Positions 20,165 to 34,178 of a DNA stretch of 64,000 nucleotides are shown in pieces. The position numbers and the translations under genes are program-made. Below the pieces are notes generated by a model. The model made no database searches and was not told the DNA's origin. It saw nothing but the letters and a program-made list of their open reading frames with translations. Each line of letters begins with the position of its first letter. The stretch's first letter is position 1. This DNA comes from Propioniciclava sp. (GTDB lineage Bacteria; Actinomycetota; Actinomycetes; Propionibacteriales; Propionibacteriaceae): positions 1-64,000 of the forward strand of contig NZ_JARKOT010000139.1 in the NCBI RefSeq assembly GCF_029977985.1. The letters are read 5' to 3'.

Positions 20165-21181
20165 ATGCGCGTGCTCGTCACCGGTGGCGCCGGATACATC
20201 GGCTCCCACACCGTCCTCGCCCTCCTGGAGACCGGGCACGATGTGCTCGTCGTGGACGACCTCTCGAACAGTTCGGAGGAGTCCCTGCGCCGGGTGGCCG
20301 AGTTAGCCGGGCGCGAGGCGCGCTTCGTGCAGGCGAACGTGCGGGACGCCGCGGCGCTCGACGCCGCCTTCGCCGGCTTCTCCCCCGACGCTGTCATCCA
20401 CTTCGCCGGCTGGAAGGCGGTGGGCGAGTCGACGCAGATCCCGCTCACGTACTACCGCGAGAACCTGGGCTCGACCTTCACCCTGCTCGAGGCGATGGCC
20501 GCCCACGACTGCCACCAGATCGTGTTCAGTTCGTCGGCCACCGTCTACGGCGAGTTGTCCGAGCCGCCGTTCACCGAGGACTCCCCCACGGGCGCCACCA
20601 ACCCCTACGGCCGCACGAAGCACATGATCGAGCAGATCCTGGCCGACGCAGCGGCAGCGGACGCCGAGCTGCGCGTCGCCGTGCTGCGCTACTTCAACCC
20701 CATCGGCGCGCACGCGTCCGGGCGCATCGGCGAGGATCCGAAGGGCATCCCGAACAACCTGCTGCCGTTCGTCGCTCAGGTCGCCACCGGACGCCGCGAC
20801 AAGCTGATGGTCTTCGGCGACGACTACCCCACCCCGGACGGGACGGGACTGCGCGACTACATCCACGTCGTCGACCTGGCCGCCGGGCATCTCGCGGCCC
20901 TTGACTACCTGGGCGGGCACGGCGGCTTCCACGTGTGGAACCTGGGCACGGGCGACCCGAAGTCGGTGCTCGACATCGTCCACGCCTACGAGGGGGCCTC
21001 CGGGGTGGCGATCCCCTACGAGATCGTCGCGCGGCGTCCGGGTGACGTGGCGGCGTCCTACGCCGACGTCACGCGCGCCCACAAGGAGCTCGGCTGGCAG
21101 GCCCGGAAATCCGTCGAACAGGCGTGCGAGGACACCTTCCGCTGGCAGTCGGAGAACCCCGACGGCTTCGCCGACTCCTGA
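20165..21181 (+). CDS. galE: UDP-glucose 4-epimerase
   Basis: MRVLVTGGAGYIGSHT ... YGRTKHMIEQIL ... LRYFNPIGAHASGRIGEDP. Confidence 0.96.
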   Translation: MRVLVTGGAGYIGSHTVLALLETGHDVLVVDDLSNSSEESLRRVAELAGREARFVQANVRDAAALDAAFAGFSPDAVIHFAGWKAVGESTQIPLTYYRENLGSTFTLLEAMAAHDCHQIVFSSSATVYGELSEPPFTEDSPTGATNPYGRTKHMIEQILADAAAADAELRVAVLRYFNPIGAHASGRIGEDPKGIPNNLLPFVAQVATGRRDKLMVFGDDYPTPDGTGLRDYIHVVDLAAGHLAALDYLGGHGGFHVWNLGTGDPKSVLDIVHAYEGASGVAIPYEIVARRPGDVAASYADVTRAHKELGWQARKSVEQACEDTFRWQSENPDGFADS

Positions 21182-21189
21182 TCAAGCCG

Positions 21190-22908
21190 TCAGTCGGAGA
21201 AGATCAGCTCCGGGTAGACCGGCTGCCACATGGCGTCGAACACCTGCTGGATCGGGTCGGTGAGCGGCCGCTCGGCGACGCCCTCGGCCTCGGCGGCGCG
21301 CGCCACCGCGATCGCGACGGTCGCGGAGACCCGCCGCAGGTCGCCCACATGCGGCAGCAGTGACTGCCCCGGGCGCGTGATGCGCACCAGGGACGCCACC
21401 GCGTGGGCGGCGGCGGCGATCATCGCGTCGGTCACCCGAGTCGCCCGGCACACGCTGACGCCCAACCCGATGCCCGGGAAGACGAACGCATTGTTGGCCT
21501 GCGCGACCGCATAGGTCGTCTCGTCGAGGGTCACCGACCCGAACGGCGACCCCGTCGCGACCAGCGCCCGGCCCTCGGTCCAGGTGAGCACGTCGGTGGG
21601 GGTGGCCTCGGCCAGGATCGTCGGGTTGGACAGGGGCATGATGATCGGCCGGTCCACGTGGAGCGCCATCTCCTTGATGACGGGCTCGGTGAACGACCCC
21701 GACTGCCCCGAGGTGCCGATGAGCACGGTCGGGTGCACGTTCCGCACGACGTCAGCGAGGTGGTAGGCGCCCGGCGCGTCGGTGGCCCAGCCCGTGAGCT
21801 CGGACGCCGCCCGCGCGTAGGGCCGCTGGAAGTCGCGGAACCTCTTCGTGGGCTCGTCGGTGACCAGCCCCCGGCTCGAGGTGGCCCAGAACCGCTGCCG
21901 TGCCTCCGCAGGTGTGAGCCCCTCGGCGACCATGAGGTCGACCAGGAGATCGGCGATGCCGATGCCCGCGGTGCCGGCACCGTGAATGACGACGCGCTGG
22001 TCCGAGAGCCGCTCCCCCTTCGCCCGCACGCCCGCGATGAACGCCGCCGCCACGACCGCCGCCGTCCCCTGGACGTCGTCGTTGAACGTGCAGATGCGCT
22101 CCCGGTAGGCGTTCAGGATGCGGTGGGCGTTGTCGGCGCCGAAGTCCTCCCAGTGGATCATCGCGTGTGGGAACACTCGCTGCGCGGCCTCCACGAAGGC
22201 CTCGATGAACGCGTCGTAGCGCTCACCGCGCACGCGGGCGTGCTGCAGGCCGAGGTAGAGGTCGTCGTTGAGGAGTTGCAAGTTGTCGGTGCCGACGTCG
22301 AGCACCACGGGCACCATCCGGTTCGGGTCGACGCCGCCGGCGGCGGTGTACAGGCTCTTCTTGCCGAGGCAGATCTGGACGCCGCCGACGCCTTGGTCGC
22401 CGATGCCGAGGATGCCCTCGGAGTCGGTGACGATCAGCATGTCGACGTCGTCGGGCTTGCGGTCGATCGAACGCAGCGCCTGCTCGATGCGATCGGGCGC
22501 CTCGATCGAGCAGAAGACGCCGGCGATGCGCTGGTACCACAGCGAGAACTCCTGGATGGCATCGCCGATGGTGGGCGTGTAGACGATCGGCATCATCTCG
22601 TCGAGATGCTCGCTCAGCAGGCGGTAGAACAGCACCGTGTTGCGGTCGCGCAGGCCCTGCAGGTAGGCGAACTTCTCCAGGTTCGAGTTCGCACGCAGGT
22701 AGCGCGTGTAGGCGCGGTGCAGTTGGGCGTCCAGCGGGGTGACCGCCTCCGGCAGCAGACCCTCCAGCCCGAGCTCGCGGCGCTCGTCGTGGGTGAACGC
22801 GGTGCCCCGGTTCAAGCGCGGGATGCGGAGAACCGCACTGCCCCGCGCGCGCACGCGGATGCGCTTGCCGTGGTCGCCGGGGAGGATGTCGTACGGACGT
22901 CCGGCCAT
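21190..22908 (-). CDS. NAD-dependent malic enzyme
   Basis: NRGTAFTHDERRELGLEGLLP ... MPIVYTPTIGDAIQEFS ... FNDDVQGTAAVVAAAF. Confidence 0.95.
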   Translation of the reverse strand: MAGRPYDILPGDHGKRIRVRARGSAVLRIPRLNRGTAFTHDERRELGLEGLLPEAVTPLDAQLHRAYTRYLRANSNLEKFAYLQGLRDRNTVLFYRLLSEHLDEMMPIVYTPTIGDAIQEFSLWYQRIAGVFCSIEAPDRIEQALRSIDRKPDDVDMLIVTDSEGILGIGDQGVGGVQICLGKKSLYTAAGGVDPNRMVPVVLDVGTDNLQLLNDDLYLGLQHARVRGERYDAFIEAFVEAAQRVFPHAMIHWEDFGADNAHRILNAYRERICTFNDDVQGTAAVVAAAFIAGVRAKGERLSDQRVVIHGAGTAGIGIADLLVDLMVAEGLTPAEARQRFWATSSRGLVTDEPTKRFRDFQRPYARAASELTGWATDAPGAYHLADVVRNVHPTVLIGTSGQSGSFTEPVIKEMALHVDRPIIMPLSNPTILAEATPTDVLTWTEGRALVATGSPFGSVTLDETTYAVAQANNAFVFPGIGLGVSVCRATRVTDAMIAAAAHAVASLVRITRPGQSLLPHVGDLRRVSATVAIAVARAAEAEGVAERPLTDPIQQVFDAMWQPVYPELIFSD

Positions 22909-22968: not shown

Positions 22969-23499
22969 TCAGCCGTAGGTGCCGAACGCCATCGCGAGGA
23001 TGGCGATGCACACGCCGGCGGCGATGATGGGCACCGCGCCGAGGGTGATGAGGATGCCGGCACCGGTGCGGCGGAGGTGCGGCTTCGAGATGAGCCAGAC
23101 CGACAGCGTGACGACGCCCCCCAACCCCAGCACGGTGACCAGCCCGGACACGATCGCGGCGACCTCGGGGCTGACCGGGTCGAGCGCCGTTCCGATCGCG
23201 CCCGCCAGACCGAACGGCACCGGCCAGGCGACCAGGCCGATCAGCGCTCCGAGCAGGTAGGACCCGCCGGACTTCCGGGCAGGAGGGATCGGCGCCGGCC
23301 ACGCCTGCGGGGGCGGCATCTGGCCCTGTGGGGGCGGCATCTGGCCCTGTGGGGGCGGCTCCGGGCCCTGTGGGGGCGGCTCCGGGCCCTGAGGCGGCGG
23401 CCCGCCCGGAGGCGTCGGCCCACCACCGGGGGGCGTCGACCAGGGCGGGGTGCTCGGTTGGGGGCCGAAGGGGTTCGGCTCGGGGGGTTGGTCGGACAT
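22969..23499 (-). CDS. Pro/Gly-rich N-terminus membrane protein (DUF4190-like)
   Basis: PPPQGPEPPPQGPEPPPQGQMPPPQGQMPPPQ repeat followed by TM helices; ATGA overlap with the upstream gene. Confidence 0.65.
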   Translation of the reverse strand: MSDQPPEPNPFGPQPSTPPWSTPPGGGPTPPGGPPPQGPEPPPQGPEPPPQGQMPPPQGQMPPPQAWPAPIPPARKSGGSYLLGALIGLVAWPVPFGLAGAIGTALDPVSPEVAAIVSGLVTVLGLGGVVTLSVWLISKPHLRRTGAGILITLGAVPIIAAGVCIAILAMAFGTYG

Positions 23500-24281
23500 C
23501 ACTCACCTCCTGTTCGGGCGACGGTGCGGCATATTCTGGCACGCCGAAGGGCCAACGCATCGCGAATCACGCGCGTCAAGCGCCACACGAGCAGCGGTAG
23601 CAGGATGAGACAGAGCACCTGCGGCCCGCTCAACCCCAGCCAGAAGGGCTCGTTGCCGCGGACGAACTCGACGGCGAACCGGAACAGCGCGTAGGCGGCG
23701 ACGTAACTGACGAACAGGTCGCCGGGGCGGGCGAGGCGTCCGCGCAGGCGCCACAGCACGGTGAACGCGACGGCGTGGAAGGCCACCTCGTAGAGCAGCG
23801 AGGGGTGCAGCCCGACCCCGGGACGCGCGCCGACCGCTTCGGCGTACGGGCTGGGCAACGTCATGCCCCACGGGCCGCCCGTCGGCGTTCCGGGCAGTTC
23901 GGTCAGAGCGCAGCCGAGGCGTCCGATCGCCATGGCGAGAGCGACCGCGGGGGCGAACAGATCGCCCGTCGACGGGACGTAGCCGGTGGCGCGCTTGCCC
24001 ACGTGCACACCCACCCACGCGCCGAGCAGACCGGACAGGATGCTGCGGTTGCCCTCGGTCCACCAGTCCCACAGGGGGATGGTCGGATCGGAGAACCACG
24101 TGCCCAGGCGCGCGCCCAGGGCGCCGAACGCCAGCGCGCAGCCGGCCACAGCCCACAGGCGGTCGTCGTGGAGGCCGAGGCGACGCTTCTCGCGTGCGAA
24201 CACGACCCCGGCGGCGACCAGCCCGAACGCCACGAACAGGCCGTGGACCCACGGGTTGCCCGGGAACGGGACCTCGATCAT
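23499..24281 (-). CDS. Lgt-like prolipoprotein diacylglyceryl transferase family protein
   Basis: AMAIGRLGCALTELPGTPTGGPWGM and GVGLHPSLLYE align with the Lgt signatures GRxGNFxNxE and HPSQLYE, but the signature Asn is absent. Confidence 0.8.
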   Translation of the reverse strand: MIEVPFPGNPWVHGLFVAFGLVAAGVVFAREKRRLGLHDDRLWAVAGCALAFGALGARLGTWFSDPTIPLWDWWTEGNRSILSGLLGAWVGVHVGKRATGYVPSTGDLFAPAVALAMAIGRLGCALTELPGTPTGGPWGMTLPSPYAEAVGARPGVGLHPSLLYEVAFHAVAFTVLWRLRGRLARPGDLFVSYVAAYALFRFAVEFVRGNEPFWLGLSGPQVLCLILLPLLVWRLTRVIRDALALRRARICRTVARTGGE

Positions 24282-24291
24282 GCGCCGCCCT

Positions 24292-24666
24292 TCACGCCAT
24301 GCCGGCGAGCCGCGCCACCCACCACCCGGCCCCGACCAGCCCGGCGACGGCCAGCACCGCCAGGTAGGCGAGAACGAGCCTCGTGTCACGCAGGTAGCAG
24401 CGCGACCGCGTCAGGCCGGCGCGGCGGGCTCGGGCGTAGCCGACGAACCCGATCGTGGCGAACACCACCAGCGCGGCCGGGCCGAACACCCACCCCAGCA
24501 GCGCGATCGTCGCGAAGATGCAGAGCCTGAGGGGGTCGAAGGGAGCCGGTCCGTCGGCGGTCTGCACGGTCTGGTCGGGTCCGTGTCCGGCGAGGAACGT
24601 CGACGGAGGCGGCCCGGCGGCGAACCGGCGGGCGTCCGCCTCGCCCGTGGGATGGGGAGCGCTCAT
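24292..24666 (-). CDS. Small membrane protein, unknown function
   Basis: Hydrophobic segments; lies 10 bp from the Lgt-like gene and 17 bp from the radical SAM gene. Confidence 0.65.
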   Translation of the reverse strand: MSAPHPTGEADARRFAAGPPPSTFLAGHGPDQTVQTADGPAPFDPLRLCIFATIALLGWVFGPAALVVFATIGFVGYARARRAGLTRSRCYLRDTRLVLAYLAVLAVAGLVGAGWWVARLAGMA

Positions 24667-24683
24667 GCCACCATTGTCCGCCC

Positions 24684-26249
24684 TCACCGCAGCCCGGCGA
24701 AGCCGAGACGCTGGCGTCCGAGCTCGGGCCAGGCCTGCACGGCGCAGAACGGGGCGCACTGGTGGACGCCGCCACCCGCCTCCGCGCGGACCGTCCCTAC
24801 GTGGACACAACACTGGACGAGCCGCTCCTCCAGCAGGGTGTTGACGTCCATGAAGGGCTTGACGGTGATGCGCTTGACCCGCTCGGCGAGGAGTCGGCGC
24901 ATGCGGTCCTCGCCGCCCGGGAGCTTGCCCGCCGCGAGGGTGGCCAGCGTGCTGATGCCGAGATCGCACGCCGTGCAGACGTTCTTCCAGAGCTCGAGGG
25001 TCCGAGGATGGGTGAGCGTGGCCTGCTCGCTCATCAGGTCGAGCAGCGAACTCTGCAGGGCGGTGCGCAGGTGGCGCGGCAGCTCGGAATCGGCGACACG
25101 GTTGGCGATGAGTTCGGGTTCGAGTTGCAGCCATTCGGCCAGCCGGTCGTGCCCGATGATCCCGACGAGCGAACGCCACGTGCCGTCGTCCCCGCGCAGC
25201 AGGTAGCCAACGGACGCGCAGTGGGGGTGCGAGCACGGCAGGCCGATGAGGTCGTGCCATCGCACGACGCCCCCGGTCTGCGGCTCCAGCCGGGCGAGGA
25301 CGCCGCCGTGCGTGACCCGGTCGTCGGGGTCGACGCCGGGGTTGCGTCCCGACCCGAACACCGGCTGCAGGGCCACGCCACCGACGAAGGGCGTCTCCAG
25401 CGCGCGCAGCACCGTCGCCCCGATCGCGTCGTCGTTCACGCCCTTCGCGATCGTCATGACGAGCGTGGTGAACACGCCGGCCTCCGACAGCCGCGCGATC
25501 GCAGCGTCCTTGTGCCGGGTCAGGTCACCGCCGCGCAGCGTGGTGGACGCCGCGGCGTCCGCCCCGTCGTACTGCAGGTAGACCTCGACGCGCTGCCGAT
25601 GCCGGCGGAGGACGTCGACGAGCGCGTCGTCCGTGGCGATGAGGAGCCCGTTCGTGTTGAGCATGATCCGCACGATGGGCCGCTCGGCGAGGGCGTCGAG
25701 CAGCTCGGGAAGCCTCGGGTAGAGGGTCGGCTCGCCGCCCGAGAGCATCAGCACGTCGATGCGGTTGCCCTCGCGGGCGAGGCGGGTGTCGACGTTGGCG
25801 AGCACGGCGTCAAGGTCGGCCACGCCCTTCAGCGTCGGCCCGGACGCTGTGAAACACGTGGGGCAGCGCAGGTTGCAGTGCTCGATGACGTCCTCGAGCA
25901 GGATGCACGTGTGCTGCGTCTGCGTGGGCGGCAGACCGTACTCATAGGCGGCCGGAACGGGCCGGAAGTTGGTCGGATCGTCGGGCACATGCTGCTTCGT
26001 CGGGGCCTGCCAGCGCTCGAGATAGGCCACGATGTGCGGTTCCTCGTCGTACAGCGTGCGGACGAGGCCGTGCCGCGGGCACCCACGCTGGAGCCAGAGG
26101 CGTCCCTCGGACTCCACGAGTGCGCCCGAGAGCCGCTGCGCCGCGGCGAGCGACGGGTCGTCGACGTGGCAGCGTGGGCACCAAGCGGTCACGTACCGAT
26201 GGATGCGATCGGTCCGCAGTGGCCGGCCGGGTCCGAGAGGTGTGCGCAT
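24684..26249 (-). CDS. Radical SAM protein, MJ0619/Tes-like architecture
   Basis: CNLRCPTC [4Fe-4S] motif; N-terminal CPRC ... CPRHG cysteine pairs; MLSGGEPTLYPRL; additional C-terminal Cys clusters. Confidence 0.85.
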   Translation of the reverse strand: MRTPLGPGRPLRTDRIHRYVTAWCPRCHVDDPSLAAAQRLSGALVESEGRLWLQRGCPRHGLVRTLYDEEPHIVAYLERWQAPTKQHVPDDPTNFRPVPAAYEYGLPPTQTQHTCILLEDVIEHCNLRCPTCFTASGPTLKGVADLDAVLANVDTRLAREGNRIDVLMLSGGEPTLYPRLPELLDALAERPIVRIMLNTNGLLIATDDALVDVLRRHRQRVEVYLQYDGADAAASTTLRGGDLTRHKDAAIARLSEAGVFTTLVMTIAKGVNDDAIGATVLRALETPFVGGVALQPVFGSGRNPGVDPDDRVTHGGVLARLEPQTGGVVRWHDLIGLPCSHPHCASVGYLLRGDDGTWRSLVGIIGHDRLAEWLQLEPELIANRVADSELPRHLRTALQSSLLDLMSEQATLTHPRTLELWKNVCTACDLGISTLATLAAGKLPGGEDRMRRLLAERVKRITVKPFMDVNTLLEERLVQCCVHVGTVRAEAGGGVHQCAPFCAVQAWPELGRQRLGFAGLR

Positions 26250-26334: not shown

Positions 26335-29148
26335 TCACAGCCCGGCACGCTCCCGGCTGGCGCGCTCCTGGGCGCGGAACTGGCCGAACCGCGGCAGGAA
26401 CTTGTCCCAGTCGATCGCGTGGCCGTCGATCTCGGGGCCGTCGATGCACGCGTGCTTGCGGGTCAGCTTGCCGTCCTCGGTGACCGGCACCATGCACGCG
26501 CCGCACATGCCCGTGGCGTCCACCATGATCGAGTTGAGGCTCGCCACGGTGTGGACGCCGTAGCCGCGGGTCAGCGCGCACACCGACTCCATCATCCGCG
26601 GCGGGCCGATTGTCACCACTTCGGCGAGGCGCCGCGTCGACGAACCGGCGGCGTCGGCGTCCAGCATCTGGCGCAACGGACCCGTGACCAGGCCCGGGAC
26701 GCCGAACGTGCCGTCGTCGGAGGTGAACACGATCTCCACCTGGTCGCCGAACCGCTTCTTCAGCGTCTGGAGCCGCGCTGCCTCGCCGTTCCAGAACAGC
26801 AAGCTCTCGGACCGGAAGCCGACGATCAACGTCACGTGGTTGCCGAGTTCCAGGTGCGCCCTCGCGATGGGGTACACCGGCGGCAGCCCGACGCCGCCCG
26901 CCGTGAACACGACCGTCTCGTCGTCGCCCACCCGGCGCAGCTCGCTGGGTTGCCCGAGCGGACCGGCGATGCCCGCGTAGGTCTCCCCCACGGCCATCCG
27001 GTTCATCTTGAGCGTCGACGTGCCCATGCCCTGGATGACCAGCGTGATCGTGCCCGCCTCGGCGTCCCAGTCCGCCAGGGTCAGCGGGATGAGCTCTCCG
27101 TCGGGCCAGCCCAGCACCCGCACGAACTGGCCCGCCCGGGCCGCCCGCGCGATCACCGGCGCGTACACCTCGAACTCGACGATGCCCGGCGCCAGCGGCG
27201 TCTTCGCGACGATGCGCGGCTGCGCCGAAACCAGGTTCGTGTACCGCTTGGCGCGGCCCACCCGGTCGCGGATCTGGGCCGCCGGCATGGACGCCGCCAG
27301 CTGCGCCATCGCGCGCGCCGCGGCCTGGCCGTCGCCGGCCGCGCGGATGGCGGTCGACCCGCCGCGCGCCGCGTCGCCGCCGGAGTGGACGCCCGCGATC
27401 GACGTCTCCTGCGACCCATCGCTCACCTGGATCGCCCCGCGCACGGTGACGTTCAGGTCGGGCTGGCTGTCGCGGATGATCGGGTTCGACGTGTTGCCCA
27501 GCGCCATGATGACCAGATCGGCGGGCAGCGTCTCCCGCTCGCCCGTCCGCACCGGCGAGCGGCGGCCCGAGGCGTCCGGTTCACCGAGCTCCATGACGTC
27601 GCAGACGGCAGCCCGCACCCAGTGGGCCTCGGTGCCGACGAACTCGGCCGGGGAACGCAGCGGTGCCAGCCGGACGCCCTCTTCGAGAGCGTGGTGCAAC
27701 TCCTCCACGCGGCACGGCATGGCGTCCTGCGTCCGCCGGTAGACGATCGTCACCCGGCCGCCGAGGCGCAGGGCTGTGCGGGCGGCGTCCATCGCGGTGT
27801 TGCCGCCGCCGATGACGAGCACCTTGCGCCCCGCCACGTCGGGCAGCGGCGTCTCGTACTCGGGCGAGCGCGCCCGCATGAGGTTCACGCGCGTGAGGAA
27901 CTCGTTGGCGCTCATCACGCCGAGCAGGTGCTCCCCCGGCACGTTCATGAACTGCGGCAGCCCGGCGCCGGTGCCCACGAAGACCTGCGCGAAGCCGGCG
28001 GCCTTGAGGTCGTCGAGACCAGCGGTCTTCCCGACGACGAAGTTGGTCACGAAGCGCCCGCCGAGCAGCTTGATCGTGCCCACCACGTCGTCGATCAGCT
28101 CGTTCGGCAGCCGGAACTCCGGGATGCCGTAGCGCAGCACCCCGCCCAGCTCGTGGAAGGCCTCGAACACCGTCACGGGGAACCCGTCGGCGGCCAGCAG
28201 GAACGCGTTGATGAGCCCCGACGGGCCCGACCCGATGATCGCGATCGGCGGCTTCGTCGCCGCCGCCCACGGGTCCGGACGCCCCCCGTACCGCTTCGCG
28301 ATCTCCTCCGGCGTGACCTTCTTCTCGCGCTGCGGCAGGAACCACTCCAGCTGGCCGATCTCGATCGGCCGCTGCTGGTGGGCGCACACGCCCTGGCACT
28401 GCAGCTCCTGCGGGCAGACGCGGCCGGTCACGTTTGGCAGCGGGTTGCACGCCTCGAGCAGCGCGAGCGCCTCGGCGAACTTGCCCTCACCGAGCAGGTC
28501 GAGCAGCGACGGGATGTGGATCTGCACCGGGCAGCCGCCCTTGCGGGTGCCGTTGTGCAGGAGCTCGCCCAGCTCGCACGGGCTGTCGGCGCACTGCTTG
28601 TCCCGGAGCGCCTCCAGCCACACGAACAGGTCCACCTCGCGCTGGCTGTACCCCTGCGTCAGGTAGCCGAGGTAGCCGGTGTTCACCAGCTCGAAGTCGC
28701 GCGCCCGCTCGGCCGCCGGCCGGATGAAGGGCCGCACGTTGTTGGCCGCGGGCCAGTTCTGGCTCAGCCCGGCGAACATCGGGTAACGGTCGCGCAGATG
28801 CTCGTCGAGACCCGCGACGAACCGTCGCTTGAGCCGCAGCGGCGCGCTCCACAGGAACCGCATCGCGACCCTGCTCGCGTCGTCGTCGCGCAGCAGCGTC
28901 GACCACAGCTGCCGCGTGAACGCGGCCGTCAACGGTCCCGCCGCGAAGGCCGCCGCCACCTGCTGGACGCCGTCGCGCAGGAACAGCTCCCGGAACTGCC
29001 GCGGGTTCGCCGCCAGCTGCCGCTTGAGCACCTCCACCTGCGCCTCGAACGCCCCCACCGCCGGGTCGGACGCCAGCGCCGCCAGTTGGGCTCGGGAGGC
29101 ATCCAGGGCGGCCTGTGCGGCGAGGTAGGACTCGACTGCAGTCGTCAT
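26335..29148 (-). CDS. Fused GltD-like / PyrK-NfnA-like FAD/NAD(P) oxidoreductase (possible fused NfnB-NfnA)
   Basis: GRVCPQELQCQGVCAHQ and IIGSGPSGLINAFLLAADGFPVTVFEA (GltD type); C-terminal FNR-like domain with ATGMCGACMVPV...HACIDGPEIDGHAIDWD. Confidence 0.85.
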   Translation of the reverse strand: MTTAVESYLAAQAALDASRAQLAALASDPAVGAFEAQVEVLKRQLAANPRQFRELFLRDGVQQVAAAFAAGPLTAAFTRQLWSTLLRDDDASRVAMRFLWSAPLRLKRRFVAGLDEHLRDRYPMFAGLSQNWPAANNVRPFIRPAAERARDFELVNTGYLGYLTQGYSQREVDLFVWLEALRDKQCADSPCELGELLHNGTRKGGCPVQIHIPSLLDLLGEGKFAEALALLEACNPLPNVTGRVCPQELQCQGVCAHQQRPIEIGQLEWFLPQREKKVTPEEIAKRYGGRPDPWAAATKPPIAIIGSGPSGLINAFLLAADGFPVTVFEAFHELGGVLRYGIPEFRLPNELIDDVVGTIKLLGGRFVTNFVVGKTAGLDDLKAAGFAQVFVGTGAGLPQFMNVPGEHLLGVMSANEFLTRVNLMRARSPEYETPLPDVAGRKVLVIGGGNTAMDAARTALRLGGRVTIVYRRTQDAMPCRVEELHHALEEGVRLAPLRSPAEFVGTEAHWVRAAVCDVMELGEPDASGRRSPVRTGERETLPADLVIMALGNTSNPIIRDSQPDLNVTVRGAIQVSDGSQETSIAGVHSGGDAARGGSTAIRAAGDGQAAARAMAQLAASMPAAQIRDRVGRAKRYTNLVSAQPRIVAKTPLAPGIVEFEVYAPVIARAARAGQFVRVLGWPDGELIPLTLADWDAEAGTITLVIQGMGTSTLKMNRMAVGETYAGIAGPLGQPSELRRVGDDETVVFTAGGVGLPPVYPIARAHLELGNHVTLIVGFRSESLLFWNGEAARLQTLKKRFGDQVEIVFTSDDGTFGVPGLVTGPLRQMLDADAAGSSTRRLAEVVTIGPPRMMESVCALTRGYGVHTVASLNSIMVDATGMCGACMVPVTEDGKLTRKHACIDGPEIDGHAIDWDKFLPRFGQFRAQERASRERAGL

Positions 29149-32100
29149 CGGATGATCTCGCTGTCGCAGTTGTCGATCACCTTGCGGATCCGCGCCAGGT
29201 TCTCGGGCGTCAGCGGCAGCTTCTCCAACGCCCCCGGAATCATCCGGGCCACATGGGTCACGTGCCCGTCCACGATGACCTCCTCGCTCTCGAACAGCTC
29301 CGGCATCTCCTGATAGCAGGTCTTGCAGTCACTGCACAGGGTCCTGTCGTTCTCGAGCAACTCGACCACGGCCGTCTTCTCCGCCTCCGCCAGCGCCTGT
29401 CGAGGGGCGCTCAGCGAGTCGAGCCCACCCGTGGAACGAGAGGGGGTCAACGACTCGAAGTGACCCTGCACCAGGGCGCTCGGCGCGCTCGTCGTGGGCG
29501 GCAGGGCGCCGGGCCCGGACGCCGCCAGCTCGCTCAGCGCGCGGGCGATGTCGTCGATGGAGGTCTCACGCTGTGCGCTGGCCTCGTCGAAACGGGCCTG
29601 CAGATCGGCGAGCGCCTTGGCGTGGTCGGCGCGCAGGTCGGCCTCGACCTGGCCCGACAGGTACTGCAGCAGCTCCCAGTTGCGGCGCCGGTCCTCGACG
29701 AGATCGACGATGCCCTGGGCGCACGCCACCTTCACGAGCCGCAGGTCGGCGTCCGTGGAGTACACGAACGGGATGCGGCCTTCGCGGTCGGCGGCGTCCA
29801 GGTCGACGTACTCGTCGATCACCAGGCCGGCAGCCTCCTCGTCGGCCCGCAGCGGCCGGAACTGCTTGGCGAACCGCACCTCGCCGAGAGCGAAGTCGGC
29901 GGGTGTGAGGGCCACGGACAACTGCTTGAGCGAGCCGTCGGCGTCCGCATGGTTGAGCTTCTGCGTCACCCAGAGCGCCCCGACCTCGGGGTTCCCGTCG
30001 ATGCTGAACCGCTCGAACACCGTGTCGCCGCGGCGCGGATCGTGCACGAACAGCGGCGACATGCGCGACCGCACGGCGAGACGGCCGCGGTTGGCGGCCT
30101 GCTCGTCGGCGATGCCCTGCTCTCCCTGGCACGGCGTGTAGACGTCGAGGAGGGCCGCGCCGTCGGCGTAGGTGAGGAACTCGACGGTGTTCTTCAGGAA
30201 GTGCGCCTGCATCGCGGTGGCCGTCTGCACGACGAACACGTGCGGGTGGAAGGACGCGAGCAGACCGAGTTCCTTGCGGGCCTCCGTCTTGCCCGGGTGG
30301 GCACGCCCGGCACGGGCGAGGTCGGAGTCCTGCCCGATGAAGCTCGATGTGGACGCCTGCCCGCCGGTGTTGCTGTACACGCCGGTGTTCAGCACGAGTG
30401 CCTTGATGGGCGTGCCCGAGGTGAGCACGCGCGACAGCGCGCCGAAGCCGATGTCGTAGGTCGCGCCGTCGCCGCCGATGGTGAGGAAGGTGGGCAGCAG
30501 GTCCATCTCCTCGGGCGTGAACTGCTCCCAGCCCAGCAGCGCGAGCGCCTGGTCGTCGCGGCCCTCGCGGAAGCGGTCGTCGAGCTCCAGCCGGGCGGTG
30601 CGCAGGGCACGCACGGCGTCCAACACCTGGGCGGCGATGCCCTCGAATAGCCCTTTGGCCAAGGGTTGTGCGTCCTGGAACAGGCTGTTCACCCACGGGT
30701 CGTTGTACGGGTTGTACGGCATCGTCGACGCGTAAACCGACGAGCAGCCGGTTGCGTTGGCGATCACCGTCGAGGCGGGTCCCTCACCTGTCGGGCCGCC
30801 CTCCAGCAGGTAGAGATGTCGTTCCAGACCCGCGATCGCCTGGTCGAGGCGGGCGAGCCTGGCCGCATCTCCTGCTCCGACGGCGTCCCGCTTCGCGACC
30901 AGGCGGTCGAGCAGGTCGGACGCCTCGGCGATCTGGGCCGCCGTCCGCTTCTCGCCGAGCGCGTGGCTGGACGCGATGACGAGCCGGATCGCCGTGACCT
31001 CGCCACAACCGCGGCAGCCGCCATGGCCGCCCGTGGAGGCGTAGTAGTTCTCCCGATCCAGCAGCATGCGCTTGAGGTCGCCGCCTTCGCCCAACGCCGC
31101 GGCGTGGAACCGCTCGGGCGTGTTGGGCGTCTCGGCGAGGAACGCGAACCGGTCCTCCAGGACAGACCGCACGGCGGCGTCCTGCTCGGTCGCCACCAGC
31201 GCGTGCGGGCCGCAGATCTCGACGCACTCCAGACAGCCGGTGCACTTCCACGGGTCGATGGTCGCCGCGAACAGTCCGCCGGAACCCGGCTGCTTCTTCT
31301 CCAGCGCGTCGAAGAACGCGCGGCTCCGGGCGACCGGGTAGGTGCGAAGATGAGCCACCAGGGCACCCAGCGCGCCCGCGTGTTCGTCGCTCACGACGCG
31401 GGCGCCCGCCTCGGCGACGATGTCGGCGAACATGCGGTCGTCCTTCTTGGCGCCGAGGTAGGACGCCCGCACCGCCGCCGCCAGTTCGGGGACGGCCGCC
31501 TTCAAAGCGGCCTTGCCGTCGGCGTCCAGCACCGTGCCGCGGATGCCGGTGTGCAGCAGGTCGTCGAGCTCGAAGGCCGCATTGGGGATGGCGGCGTCCG
31601 GGCACACGAGGGCGCACTCCATGCACCCCGTGCACAGATCGGGCTGGAACATCGGCACGGTCCGCCGGAAGAGCCCCTTGTCCTTCGTGGCCGCCGTCCC
31701 CGGGGGCACGAACAGGCCCGCGCCCGGCAGCACCGGCGCCTCCCCGATGGTGCCGTCGCGGAAATGGCGGCCGCTCATCAGGTCGTAGTAGCTGTAGTCG
31801 AACAAGCCGGACGCCGAAGCGCACGTCGCGCCGCAGTCGGCCATCTGCGCCGAGAGGGCGACCGTGCGCAGCGGCAGCGGGGCGGCGAGGTCGCTGATGG
31901 TGGCCAGGTCGGGCCCGTCGTAGTCGACGGCCACGGTGGCGTCCGCCCCGTCGAGCACGACGGCCATGTTGGCGTCCATGATCGCCTCGCCCTTCGCACC
32001 CCACTTCTTGGCGATCTGGGCGCGCACCTTGGCCATGATCTCGTCGCGCGGCGCCCCGGCGGACACCTTGTCGACGTTCGCGACGACGGCACCGATGAAC

Positions 32101-34178
32101 GCGATGCCCATCATGCGCGTCTGGAGCGCGGGATCCGGGGCGTGCTTCTTCGCCACGTCGAACGCGTCGATGACGTAGAACCGAATCCGCTTGTTCCGGA
32201 TCGTGCGCCGGGCGCGGGTGGGCAGTTCGCGCCACACCTCGTCGGGGGCGAGGCTCGACTGGAGGATGAACGTGCCACCGTCGACGAGGCCCTTGAGCGG
32301 GTCGGCGTGGCTGAACACCTTGTGGTCGGGGCTGATGACGACCTCGACATCCTCCAGCTCGGCGTTGGTGACGAGCACCGGTTCGGGGCTCAGGGTGATG
32401 TAGTAGTTGGTCGCCGCGCCGGATTTCTCCGAGCCGTACTTGGGCGCCGACTTGGAATACATGCCGAGCACACCGGCCAGAATGTCGGTGAGCAGCTTGC
32501 CGGTCGCGATGGTGCCGTAGCCGCCGACCGAGTGGAAGCGAAGCCGCAGCGCGGCGTCCGGAAGCAGCGCCGGGTTGGGCTCGGTCTCCAGCGCCATCTG
32601 CGCGGTGAGCGGGTAGGCGGCCCGGAGCCGGTCCTGGATCTTCTTGAGCTCCTGGTCGGGGTCGGGGTCGAAGAACTGGCTGCCGAGGTAGATGAGCGGC
32701 GGCACCGCCTGAGCGTCGAGCGCCTTGAAGGCCGCCACGAGGTGCCGTGGCTGCAGATCGTGGCCGCCGAGGCCGAAGATCGCGCTGGAGAGGTCGGGCA
32801 CCGGGTGCTGCATCGCCGGAATGCCGTCGTGGCGGACCTTCTCGATGTTGTCCTGCCCCTTGTAGACGGCTGCGGTCACGAACTGGGTGAGCGCCATCTG
32901 GTCGGACCGTTCCAGCACGAGCACCGCCTTCTTGCCGTCCAAGGCGGCGACGAGTTCGGCCTCGGGGAAGGGCTGGAGGCACTTCACCGACACGAGTCCG
33001 GCCTTGATGCCCAGGCCGCGCACGACCGGCAGGACGGCGCGCACGTCGTCCGTGACCGAGCCGAGCGCCACCATGACGACATCGGCGTCGTCGCAGTGAT
33101 ACGTCATGATCGGCGCGTACGCCCGTCCGGTGAGTTCGGCGTACTCGTCCATGGCGCGCCGGACGAGCCCGGGCACGTCGGCGGCGAAATGGGTCCGGTG
33201 GTCGACGGCCCCGGCCTGGAAGTCCGGCTGGTTCTGCACCGGGCCGGTGAGGCCGGGGTTGTGGGGGTCCACGAGCGCGGGCACCAGCTGGCGGGTGCCC
33301 TTCGCCGCGGCCTGGCGCCACTGGCGTCGCCAGGCGGCCTGCAGATCGGCCGGGATCCACCGCAGTGTGGCCCGGACGCCGTCGCCGGCGGCGTCCGCCT
33401 CGATCGCGTCGGCATTGGCCTCGAGGTGCTCGCGCAGGGCAGCCAGGGCGGCGGCGTCGAACCGACGGGCGCGGCGCGCTGCCCAGGCGTCCAGTTGCGC
33501 GACGCGCCCCTTGGCGCCGAACAGGATTTCCTGGGCGACCGTCGGGCAGGGGATGCGGCCGGCGGGGTCGCCGAGGTATTCGCGCAGCAGCGCGGGCTCG
33601 GGCAGGAACGCCTCGCTCATCATGTGGCTCGTGGAGAAGCCGTCCATGGCGTTGGCGACGGGGATGAGGCTGAGCGCCGAGGTGCGGTACGAGATGGCCG
33701 CGAGATCGGCCGCCTCCTGCGGGTTGGCGCCGAAGAGCACCGTGTAGCCGGACGGCAGCAGGGCGTACACGTCGTCGTGGCCGGCCATCACGTTGAGCGA
33801 GTGCTTGCTCACCACGCGCGCCGCCACCTGCAGGACGAACCCGCCCACCTTCTTGCCCACCGTCACGAAGTGGGACTCCATCGCGTAGAGAATCCCCTGG
33901 CTGGAGGAGGCGTTCGAGATGAACTGGCCACCCGTCAGCGCCGCCCCCAGCGCGCCCGACTGCGCCGAGTGTTCCCCCTCGGGTTCGAAGAAGAACGGGT
34001 GCTTCCCGAACACGTTGACGCCGCCGGCCGCCCGGGCCGCCTCGAACGTCTCCGCGATCTCGGTCGACGGGGTGATCGGGTAGCCGATCACGCCCCCGCA
34101 GACATGGCGCATGACGTGGGCGACCGCCCCGTTGCCATGGATGACCGACCTTGTCCCGGGGTACTTCGCTTCGCTCAT
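29145..34178 (-). CDS. nifJ: Pyruvate:ferredoxin (flavodoxin) oxidoreductase, 1677 aa, with C-terminal ferredoxin module
   Basis: YPITPST, CTGCMECALVCPDAAI, CTGCLECVEICGPHAL, TIGGDGATYDIGFGALSRVL (TPP); C-term CSDCKTCYQEMPELF...DNC. Confidence 0.93.
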   Translation of the reverse strand: MSEAKYPGTRSVIHGNGAVAHVMRHVCGGVIGYPITPSTEIAETFEAARAAGGVNVFGKHPFFFEPEGEHSAQSGALGAALTGGQFISNASSSQGILYAMESHFVTVGKKVGGFVLQVAARVVSKHSLNVMAGHDDVYALLPSGYTVLFGANPQEAADLAAISYRTSALSLIPVANAMDGFSTSHMMSEAFLPEPALLREYLGDPAGRIPCPTVAQEILFGAKGRVAQLDAWAARRARRFDAAALAALREHLEANADAIEADAAGDGVRATLRWIPADLQAAWRRQWRQAAAKGTRQLVPALVDPHNPGLTGPVQNQPDFQAGAVDHRTHFAADVPGLVRRAMDEYAELTGRAYAPIMTYHCDDADVVMVALGSVTDDVRAVLPVVRGLGIKAGLVSVKCLQPFPEAELVAALDGKKAVLVLERSDQMALTQFVTAAVYKGQDNIEKVRHDGIPAMQHPVPDLSSAIFGLGGHDLQPRHLVAAFKALDAQAVPPLIYLGSQFFDPDPDQELKKIQDRLRAAYPLTAQMALETEPNPALLPDAALRLRFHSVGGYGTIATGKLLTDILAGVLGMYSKSAPKYGSEKSGAATNYYITLSPEPVLVTNAELEDVEVVISPDHKVFSHADPLKGLVDGGTFILQSSLAPDEVWRELPTRARRTIRNKRIRFYVIDAFDVAKKHAPDPALQTRMMGIAFIGAVVANVDKVSAGAPRDEIMAKVRAQIAKKWGAKGEAIMDANMAVVLDGADATVAVDYDGPDLATISDLAAPLPLRTVALSAQMADCGATCASASGLFDYSYYDLMSGRHFRDGTIGEAPVLPGAGLFVPPGTAATKDKGLFRRTVPMFQPDLCTGCMECALVCPDAAIPNAAFELDDLLHTGIRGTVLDADGKAALKAAVPELAAAVRASYLGAKKDDRMFADIVAEAGARVVSDEHAGALGALVAHLRTYPVARSRAFFDALEKKQPGSGGLFAATIDPWKCTGCLECVEICGPHALVATEQDAAVRSVLEDRFAFLAETPNTPERFHAAALGEGGDLKRMLLDRENYYASTGGHGGCRGCGEVTAIRLVIASSHALGEKRTAAQIAEASDLLDRLVAKRDAVGAGDAARLARLDQAIAGLERHLYLLEGGPTGEGPASTVIANATGCSSVYASTMPYNPYNDPWVNSLFQDAQPLAKGLFEGIAAQVLDAVRALRTARLELDDRFREGRDDQALALLGWEQFTPEEMDLLPTFLTIGGDGATYDIGFGALSRVLTSGTPIKALVLNTGVYSNTGGQASTSSFIGQDSDLARAGRAHPGKTEARKELGLLASFHPHVFVVQTATAMQAHFLKNTVEFLTYADGAALLDVYTPCQGEQGIADEQAANRGRLAVRSRMSPLFVHDPRRGDTVFERFSIDGNPEVGALWVTQKLNHADADGSLKQLSVALTPADFALGEVRFAKQFRPLRADEEAAGLVIDEYVDLDAADREGRIPFVYSTDADLRLVKVACAQGIVDLVEDRRRNWELLQYLSGQVEADLRADHAKALADLQARFDEASAQRETSIDDIARALSELAASGPGALPPTTSAPSALVQGHFESLTPSRSTGGLDSLSAPRQALAEAEKTAVVELLENDRTLCSDCKTCYQEMPELFESEEVIVDGHVTHVARMIPGALEKLPLTPENLARIRKVIDNCDSEIIR

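Follow-up and report, generated by a model that had tools for sequence, protein, structure and literature searches.

A four-gene radical SAM and variant Lgt module of Actinomycetota, apparently an undescribed system for modifying membrane lipids or lipoproteins

Gene layout

The DNA examined is a 64-kb window (positions 1-64,000 of contig NZ_JARKOT010000139.1) from Propioniciclava sp. (GCF_029977985.1), and all coordinates refer to this whole stretch. It carries a compact set of genes for a radical S-adenosylmethionine (SAM) protein (rSAM), a small membrane protein (MP), a variant Lgt paralogue (Lgt-C) and a second small membrane protein (P4):

24684-26249, minus strand: rSAM, radical SAM protein of 521 aa, in its own clade of the Tes/TrsS superfamily
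24292-24666, minus strand: MP, small membrane protein of 124 aa with two invariant Cys residues
23499-24281, minus strand: Lgt-C, variant Lgt paralogue (Lgt-like) of 260 aa, PF01790
22969-23499, minus strand: P4, Pro-rich small membrane protein of 176 aa with a hydrophobic C-terminal helix and GxC 12 residues before the C-terminus

The gaps between rSAM and MP (24667-24683) and between MP and Lgt-C (24282-24291) measure 17 and 10 bp, and the open reading frame (ORF) coordinates bear out the three closely spaced minus-strand genes described in an earlier, sequence-only reading of the stretch. The motifs listed there (CNLRCPTC, CPRC, CPRHG, GRLGCALTE and HPSLLYE) are all found in the sequence. 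That reading also gave the fourth gene an ATGA overlap; the sequence instead reads TGATG (1 nt overlap, ATG start) or GTGA (4 nt, GTG start) where the P4 start meets the Lgt-C stop codon. Its three-gene unit has to be enlarged to a module of four, P4 included. All four proteins carry invariant or nearly invariant Cys residues.

Conservation and distribution

The distribution figures apply within the Actinomycetota. In a sample of 297 Actinomycetes genomes, rSAM orthologues (60-70% identity) were found in 17, the source genome among them, and more distant paralogues (31-35% identity) in ten others. Searched for with a dedicated profile, Lgt-C turns up in precisely these 17 genomes, without exception, at 324 bits or more, and every other Lgt protein in the 297 genomes scores 100 bits or less. 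Simple counting puts the chance of two identical 17-genome sets at about 1 in 10^27, a figure to be read with the relatedness, and hence non-independence, of the genomes. In all 16 other rSAM-bearing genomes Lgt-C adjoins rSAM. Such strict co-occurrence points to the variant Lgt as a partner of the radical enzyme and not a spare copy.

A scan of 84,980 species genomes returned 518 candidate rSAM relatives, of which the best 80 are all from actinobacteria, including Tessaracoccus, Micropruina, Arthrobacter, Sinomonas, Microbacterium, Agromyces, Janibacter, Knoellia, Nocardioides and Dactylosporangium. rSAM and Lgt-C are adjacent in 96 of 97 loci; for the sole exception (L066) the available stretch starts, at a contig end, approximately 330 bp before rSAM. 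Two gene orders occur, Lgt-(P4)-rSAM-MP and rSAM-MP-Lgt-(P4), so the linkage has outlasted rearrangement. The distance matrices of rSAM and Lgt-C are correlated (r = 0.90), a value reached by none of 500 permutations. No Lgt-C was found beside the paralogous rSAMs within the flanks read, and a search for further conserved genes within about 6 kb of the loci brought up nothing beyond the core genes themselves and out-of-frame ORFs that overlap them.

rSAM and Lgt-C also travel together on large mycobacterial plasmids, namely M. avium pS2b (L158) and M. branderi pJCM12687 (L159); with L035, L040, L041 and L043, the last four of putative genus, these are the Mycobacteriaceae loci relied upon here. 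Outside Actinomycetota there are plasmid matches at 26-30% identity, in haloarchaea and Persicobacter. Conservation of the neighbourhood beyond close relatives, which the sequence-only reading had made a touchstone for its proposal, is evident: the genes occur as a set in many families of actinobacteria, and other classes of Actinomycetota have them too (loci L135-L138). Since this holds despite the changed gene order, and since rSAM and Lgt-C mark the same 17 of 297 genomes, the linkage is more than chance, and rSAM, MP, Lgt-C and P4 almost certainly constitute one functional module.

The radical SAM protein

Pfam recognizes in rSAM the Radical_SAM domain and the zinc-ribbon of the HMPTM family. 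The best-scoring NCBIfam model is that of the radical SAM (seleno)protein TrsS (NF045646), with 197.8 bits, under its equivalog cut-off of 490. Among relatives of solved structure, Tes alone aligns over most of the length of rSAM (sequence profile E 4.4e-38), and the predicted fold also finds Tes as its best PDB match (7tom; E 4.6e-29, TMq 0.72), the next being radical SAM maturases such as SkfB. The model has low confidence at residues 378-433 and was not used for cluster geometry.

Alignment of 104 rSAM sequences reveals invariant C24, C27, C57 and H60, corresponding to the rubredoxin-type CX2C..CX2H site of Tes, as well as C125, C129 and C132 of the SAM cluster (CX3CX2C) and H113, C115, C339 and C344. 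C425, C428, C480, C481, C498 and C502 are nearly invariant. These Cys and His residues are candidate metal ligands. With Tes (GDGT-MAS, MJ0619; NF045702, PDB 7TOL/7TOM) the protein has in common the whole-length fold, the rubredoxin-like and SAM-cluster motifs and the C-terminal CC...PFC, to which rSAM adds C498. The N-terminal auxiliary cluster of Tes is held by C73, C77, C80 and a His (PMC9433317); unlike Tes, the rSAM clade has no equivalents of these three Cys residues, the motif CPYDCGLCPNH having become AYxxGLPxxQTQHTC. Tes Met439 and Tyr459 align to K464 and V484, respectively, and variants of Tes at both positions remained active in assays (PMC9433317). rSAM further differs from Tes in C425, C428 and C498, found in this clade only among the sequences compared, and in its genomic partners in Actinomycetota, which are Lgt-C and in most cases P4.

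The actinobacterial TrsS/Tes-like paralogues and rSAM have H113, C115, C339 and C344 in common where scored. Most of these paralogues, unlike rSAM, still possess CPxDCGLCPxH, and none adjoins Lgt-C in the flanks read. In a phylogenetic tree the Lgt-linked rSAMs form one group (100/100 support) apart from Tes and the paralogues; only the separateness of this clade is used here, Tes and one paralogue being on long branches. Judged by its sequence, rSAM belongs to a clade of its own within the Tes/TrsS superfamily, and appears to combine Tes-like enzyme parts with another complement of auxiliary metal ligands. The likeness to MJ0619/Tes first proposed from the letters stands insofar as both sequence and fold have Tes as their best PDB match, and the profile search suggested along with it does place the two in related families; it fails as an identification, rSAM scoring somewhat higher with TrsS and forming its own clade. 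That rSAM is a Tes equivalog is ruled out by its score with the Tes model NF045702 (137.2 bits, against a cut-off of 450), the missing N-terminal auxiliary Cys residues and the separate clade.

A different context within the superfamily is seen on a Mycolicibacterium vanbaalenii plasmid (L161:2287-7327), where a TrsS/Tes-like rSAM paralogue is accompanied by a second radical SAM protein, CcdA, a disulfide oxidoreductase and a methyltransferase.

Homology to Tes over the whole length of rSAM raises the idea of membrane-spanning or cross-linked lipids, in which rSAM would join two phospholipid tails and Lgt-C would change or transfer the headgroup side; bacterial homologues of Tes have been proposed as makers of membrane-spanning lipids (PMC8941075). 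Against this stand the score of rSAM, far under the Tes cut-off, and its lack of the N-terminal auxiliary ligands, Met439 and Tyr459. Nor are we aware of tetraether-type lipids having been reported for these aerobic genera, and we regard this explanation as quite improbable.

The variant Lgt

Lgt-C matches PF01790 with 103.3 bits, above the gathering score of 24.9, and the lgt equivalog model TIGR00544 with 58.0 bits, below the cut-off of 118.9. Its AlphaFold model (pLDDT 93.5) has a single Foldseek match below 0.001, to E. coli Lgt 5azb (E 5.9e-07, TMq 0.62). phmmer with the single Lgt-C sequence detected no relative in the PDB, but a profile search did find 5azb. The AlphaFold comparison put forward in the sequence-only reading has accordingly produced a fold match for each enzyme, Tes 7tom for rSAM and Lgt 5azb for Lgt-C.

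Relative to E. coli Lgt (PF01790, PDB 5AZB/5AZC), Lgt-C retains the fold, the HPS motif and the equivalents of R143 (R121), E151 (E128), G154 (G131), R239 (R201), E243 (E205) and R246 (R208). It differs in three replacements, Y26 to H13, H103 to L82 and N146 to C124, and in being additional to the canonical lgt of the same genome. The residues needed in E. coli Lgt are Y26, H103, R143, N146, G154 and R239 (PMC13251419), of which Lgt-C retains R143, G154 and R239, with Y26, H103 and N146 replaced; H103 varies in other Lgt proteins too. Across 103 Lgt-C sequences, conservation reaches 99% or more at H13, C124, R121, E128, H159, R201, E205 and R208, a pattern that favours a functional active site over decay. 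The non-canonical Lgt noticed at the outset is confirmed as a paralogue with Y26H and N146C, below the equivalog cut-off. It is not the only Lgt of the genome: a canonical lgt, with motif GRLGNWFNQE, lies on contig C148 (215 bits).

Such a protein has been described before. Mycobacterium smegmatis MSMEG_5408 is a second Lgt with Y26H and N146C and presumed low Lgt activity (PMC13251419); that paper makes no mention of a radical SAM gene with MSMEG_5408. The likeness of MSMEG_5408 to Lgt-C rests on these two residues, and we infer its adjacency to an rSAM from the other Mycobacteriaceae loci. The Y26H/N146C Lgt had thus been noticed already, without the link to rSAM. A published account of the rSAM-Lgt-C pairing, or of its link to MP and P4, was not found in the open-access literature on TrsS, on MSMEG_5408 or on radical SAM proteins with Lgt.

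The replacement of Y26 and N146, essential in E. coli, and of H103, together with the strict pairing with rSAM, could mean that Lgt-C is non-enzymatic, a lipid-binding membrane subunit presenting phosphatidylglycerol to rSAM. This is very unlikely: the replacements are 99-100% conserved and the other catalytic-site residues are kept, pointing to an active site that has been altered, not lost, and the natural N146C Lgt of Leptospira partly complements E. coli (PMC13251419).

The small membrane proteins

MP has no match in Pfam or NCBIfam. Its two invariant Cys residues are C45, in DPLRLC, and C86 (alignment numbering), in SRCxLRDTRLVLxYL.

P4 begins with a Pro-rich region and ends with a hydrophobic helix; the helix contains G-x-C, in most cases 9-12 residues from the stop codon. 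Of 104 rSAM loci, 93 have a P4-like ORF nearby, in 91 cases with the terminal GxC; several of the 11 loci in which none was counted have short flanks or longer-tailed P4-like ORFs. The last Arg or Lys stands 20-21 residues before the Cys; the stretch ahead of it has a net positive charge in nearly all cases, and the tail is near neutral. By the positive-inside rule, this charge pattern would place the P4 Cys at the outer face of the membrane, where Lgt acts. With its positive turn, 20-21 residues and GxC, the last helix of P4 resembles a lipoprotein signal peptide.

In locus L137 (3977-4303, minus strand), just upstream of Lgt-C, lies a P4-like candidate, perhaps shortened to some 32 residues, MQRSTVVLLIVLGVVLLLGGLCISFMTAIGYT; this peptide may represent the minimal functional part of P4.

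P4 is a small protein that evolves fast and at times comes in two or three copies, its one conserved Cys being close to the C-terminus, and radical SAM maturases such as SkfB follow Tes among the PDB matches of rSAM. Both features would suit a system resembling those for ribosomally synthesized and post-translationally modified peptides, in which rSAM modifies a protein or peptide, P4 is its substrate and Lgt-C only anchors or transfers the product. The full-length match of rSAM is, however, Tes and not the SPASM peptide maturases, and the P4 Cys would sit in an outer-side membrane helix while rSAM is cytosolic, making such an arrangement rather doubtful.

Alternatively, Lgt-C might lipidate a subset of ordinary lipoproteins encoded elsewhere in the genome, with rSAM altering the lipid donor or the completed anchor and P4 and MP serving as scaffolds. 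The Lgt fold and the phosphatidylglycerol-binding residues are indeed kept, and two lipobox DUF3558 genes lie directly upstream of Lgt-C on the M. branderi plasmid; among 11 loci inspected for lipobox lipoproteins upstream of Lgt-C, this plasmid was the only one to have them. No lipoprotein gene is found among the conserved neighbours, the genome also has a canonical Lgt, and this reading gives no account of the Cys conserved in P4. Such a second lipoprotein route seems unlikely.

Proposed mechanism

The interpretation given in the sequence-only reading is upheld in part. What we propose, as a tentative possibility in its entirety, is that the module is a membrane lipid modification system of Actinomycetota in which rSAM alters lipid tails and Lgt-C lipidates P4, possibly with the altered tails. 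Its parts differ in strength. That a lipid is the substrate of both rSAM and Lgt-C is probable: the relation to Tes suggests an rSAM that acts on lipid tails, and the retained arginines a Lgt-C that handles a phosphatidylglycerol-like donor. The helix of P4 and its regular presence beside Lgt-C make P4 a candidate acceptor, and the assignment of its Cys to this role is plausible without being favoured.

In the proposed scheme rSAM would work in the cytosol at the membrane, perhaps docked on MP, which would serve as a docking site or feed electrons to it. rSAM would take a hydrogen from the acyl or alkyl tail of a phospholipid, as Tes does, and then form a C-C or C-S bond with the help of a C-terminal Fe-S cluster. 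At the outer face, Lgt-C would bind a phosphatidylglycerol-type lipid through R121 and R201 and move the diacylglyceryl group, possibly modified by rSAM, onto the Cys conserved in P4. This would yield a small membrane protein carrying a lipid, or else a lipid conjugate, with an unusual tail. In its most specific form this would be a new lipidation system, with an rSAM-altered diacylglyceryl group attached to an internal, uncleaved P4 Cys by an Lgt with an active-site Cys, and requiring neither a lipobox nor signal peptide cleavage; so precise a version is improbable.

Several observations weigh against the proposal. In P4 the position at -2 is G and that at -1 varies, so the motif is no canonical lipobox, and one of 104 ORFs fits a relaxed one ([LVI][ASTVI][GAS]C); the P4 Cys lies near the C-terminus, and the topology of P4 is deduced from charges. 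Lgt-C is without Y26 and N146, both essential in E. coli Lgt (PMC13251419), and rSAM is without Met439/Tyr459 equivalents and the N-terminal cluster Cys residues of Tes; its substrate may be something other than a lipid. Among the loci compared, those of Mycobacteriaceae and Janibacter, along with a small number of others, gave no MP, which therefore cannot be required everywhere.

Neighbouring genes

The module is flanked by the following genes:

29145-34178, minus strand: fused pyruvate:ferredoxin oxidoreductase, upstream of the flavoprotein
26335-29148, minus strand: NAD(P)-linked iron-sulphur flavoprotein, upstream of rSAM
21190-22908, minus strand: malic enzyme, an ordinary metabolic gene downstream of the module
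20165-21181, plus strand: UDP-sugar epimerase-like gene, an ordinary metabolic gene downstream of the module

The flavoprotein/oxidoreductase pair (26335-34178) ends 85 bp from the start of rSAM. These two proteins could be a source of reduced ferredoxin, though they are not conserved neighbours of the module.

Biological meaning

The module is known here from its genes, and on that footing the four-gene set has the look of a system, as yet undescribed, that modifies membrane lipids or lipoproteins. Two questions are thereby made testable, namely what role the bacterial Tes-family radical SAM proteins play, and why actinobacteria, M. smegmatis included, retain a second Lgt in which essential residues are replaced. 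The hosts include Arthrobacter and Microbacterium, common and easily handled soil genera, as well as some mycobacteria. If tails are indeed altered, or attached to a new type of protein site, this would be a new reaction for bacterial membrane biology.

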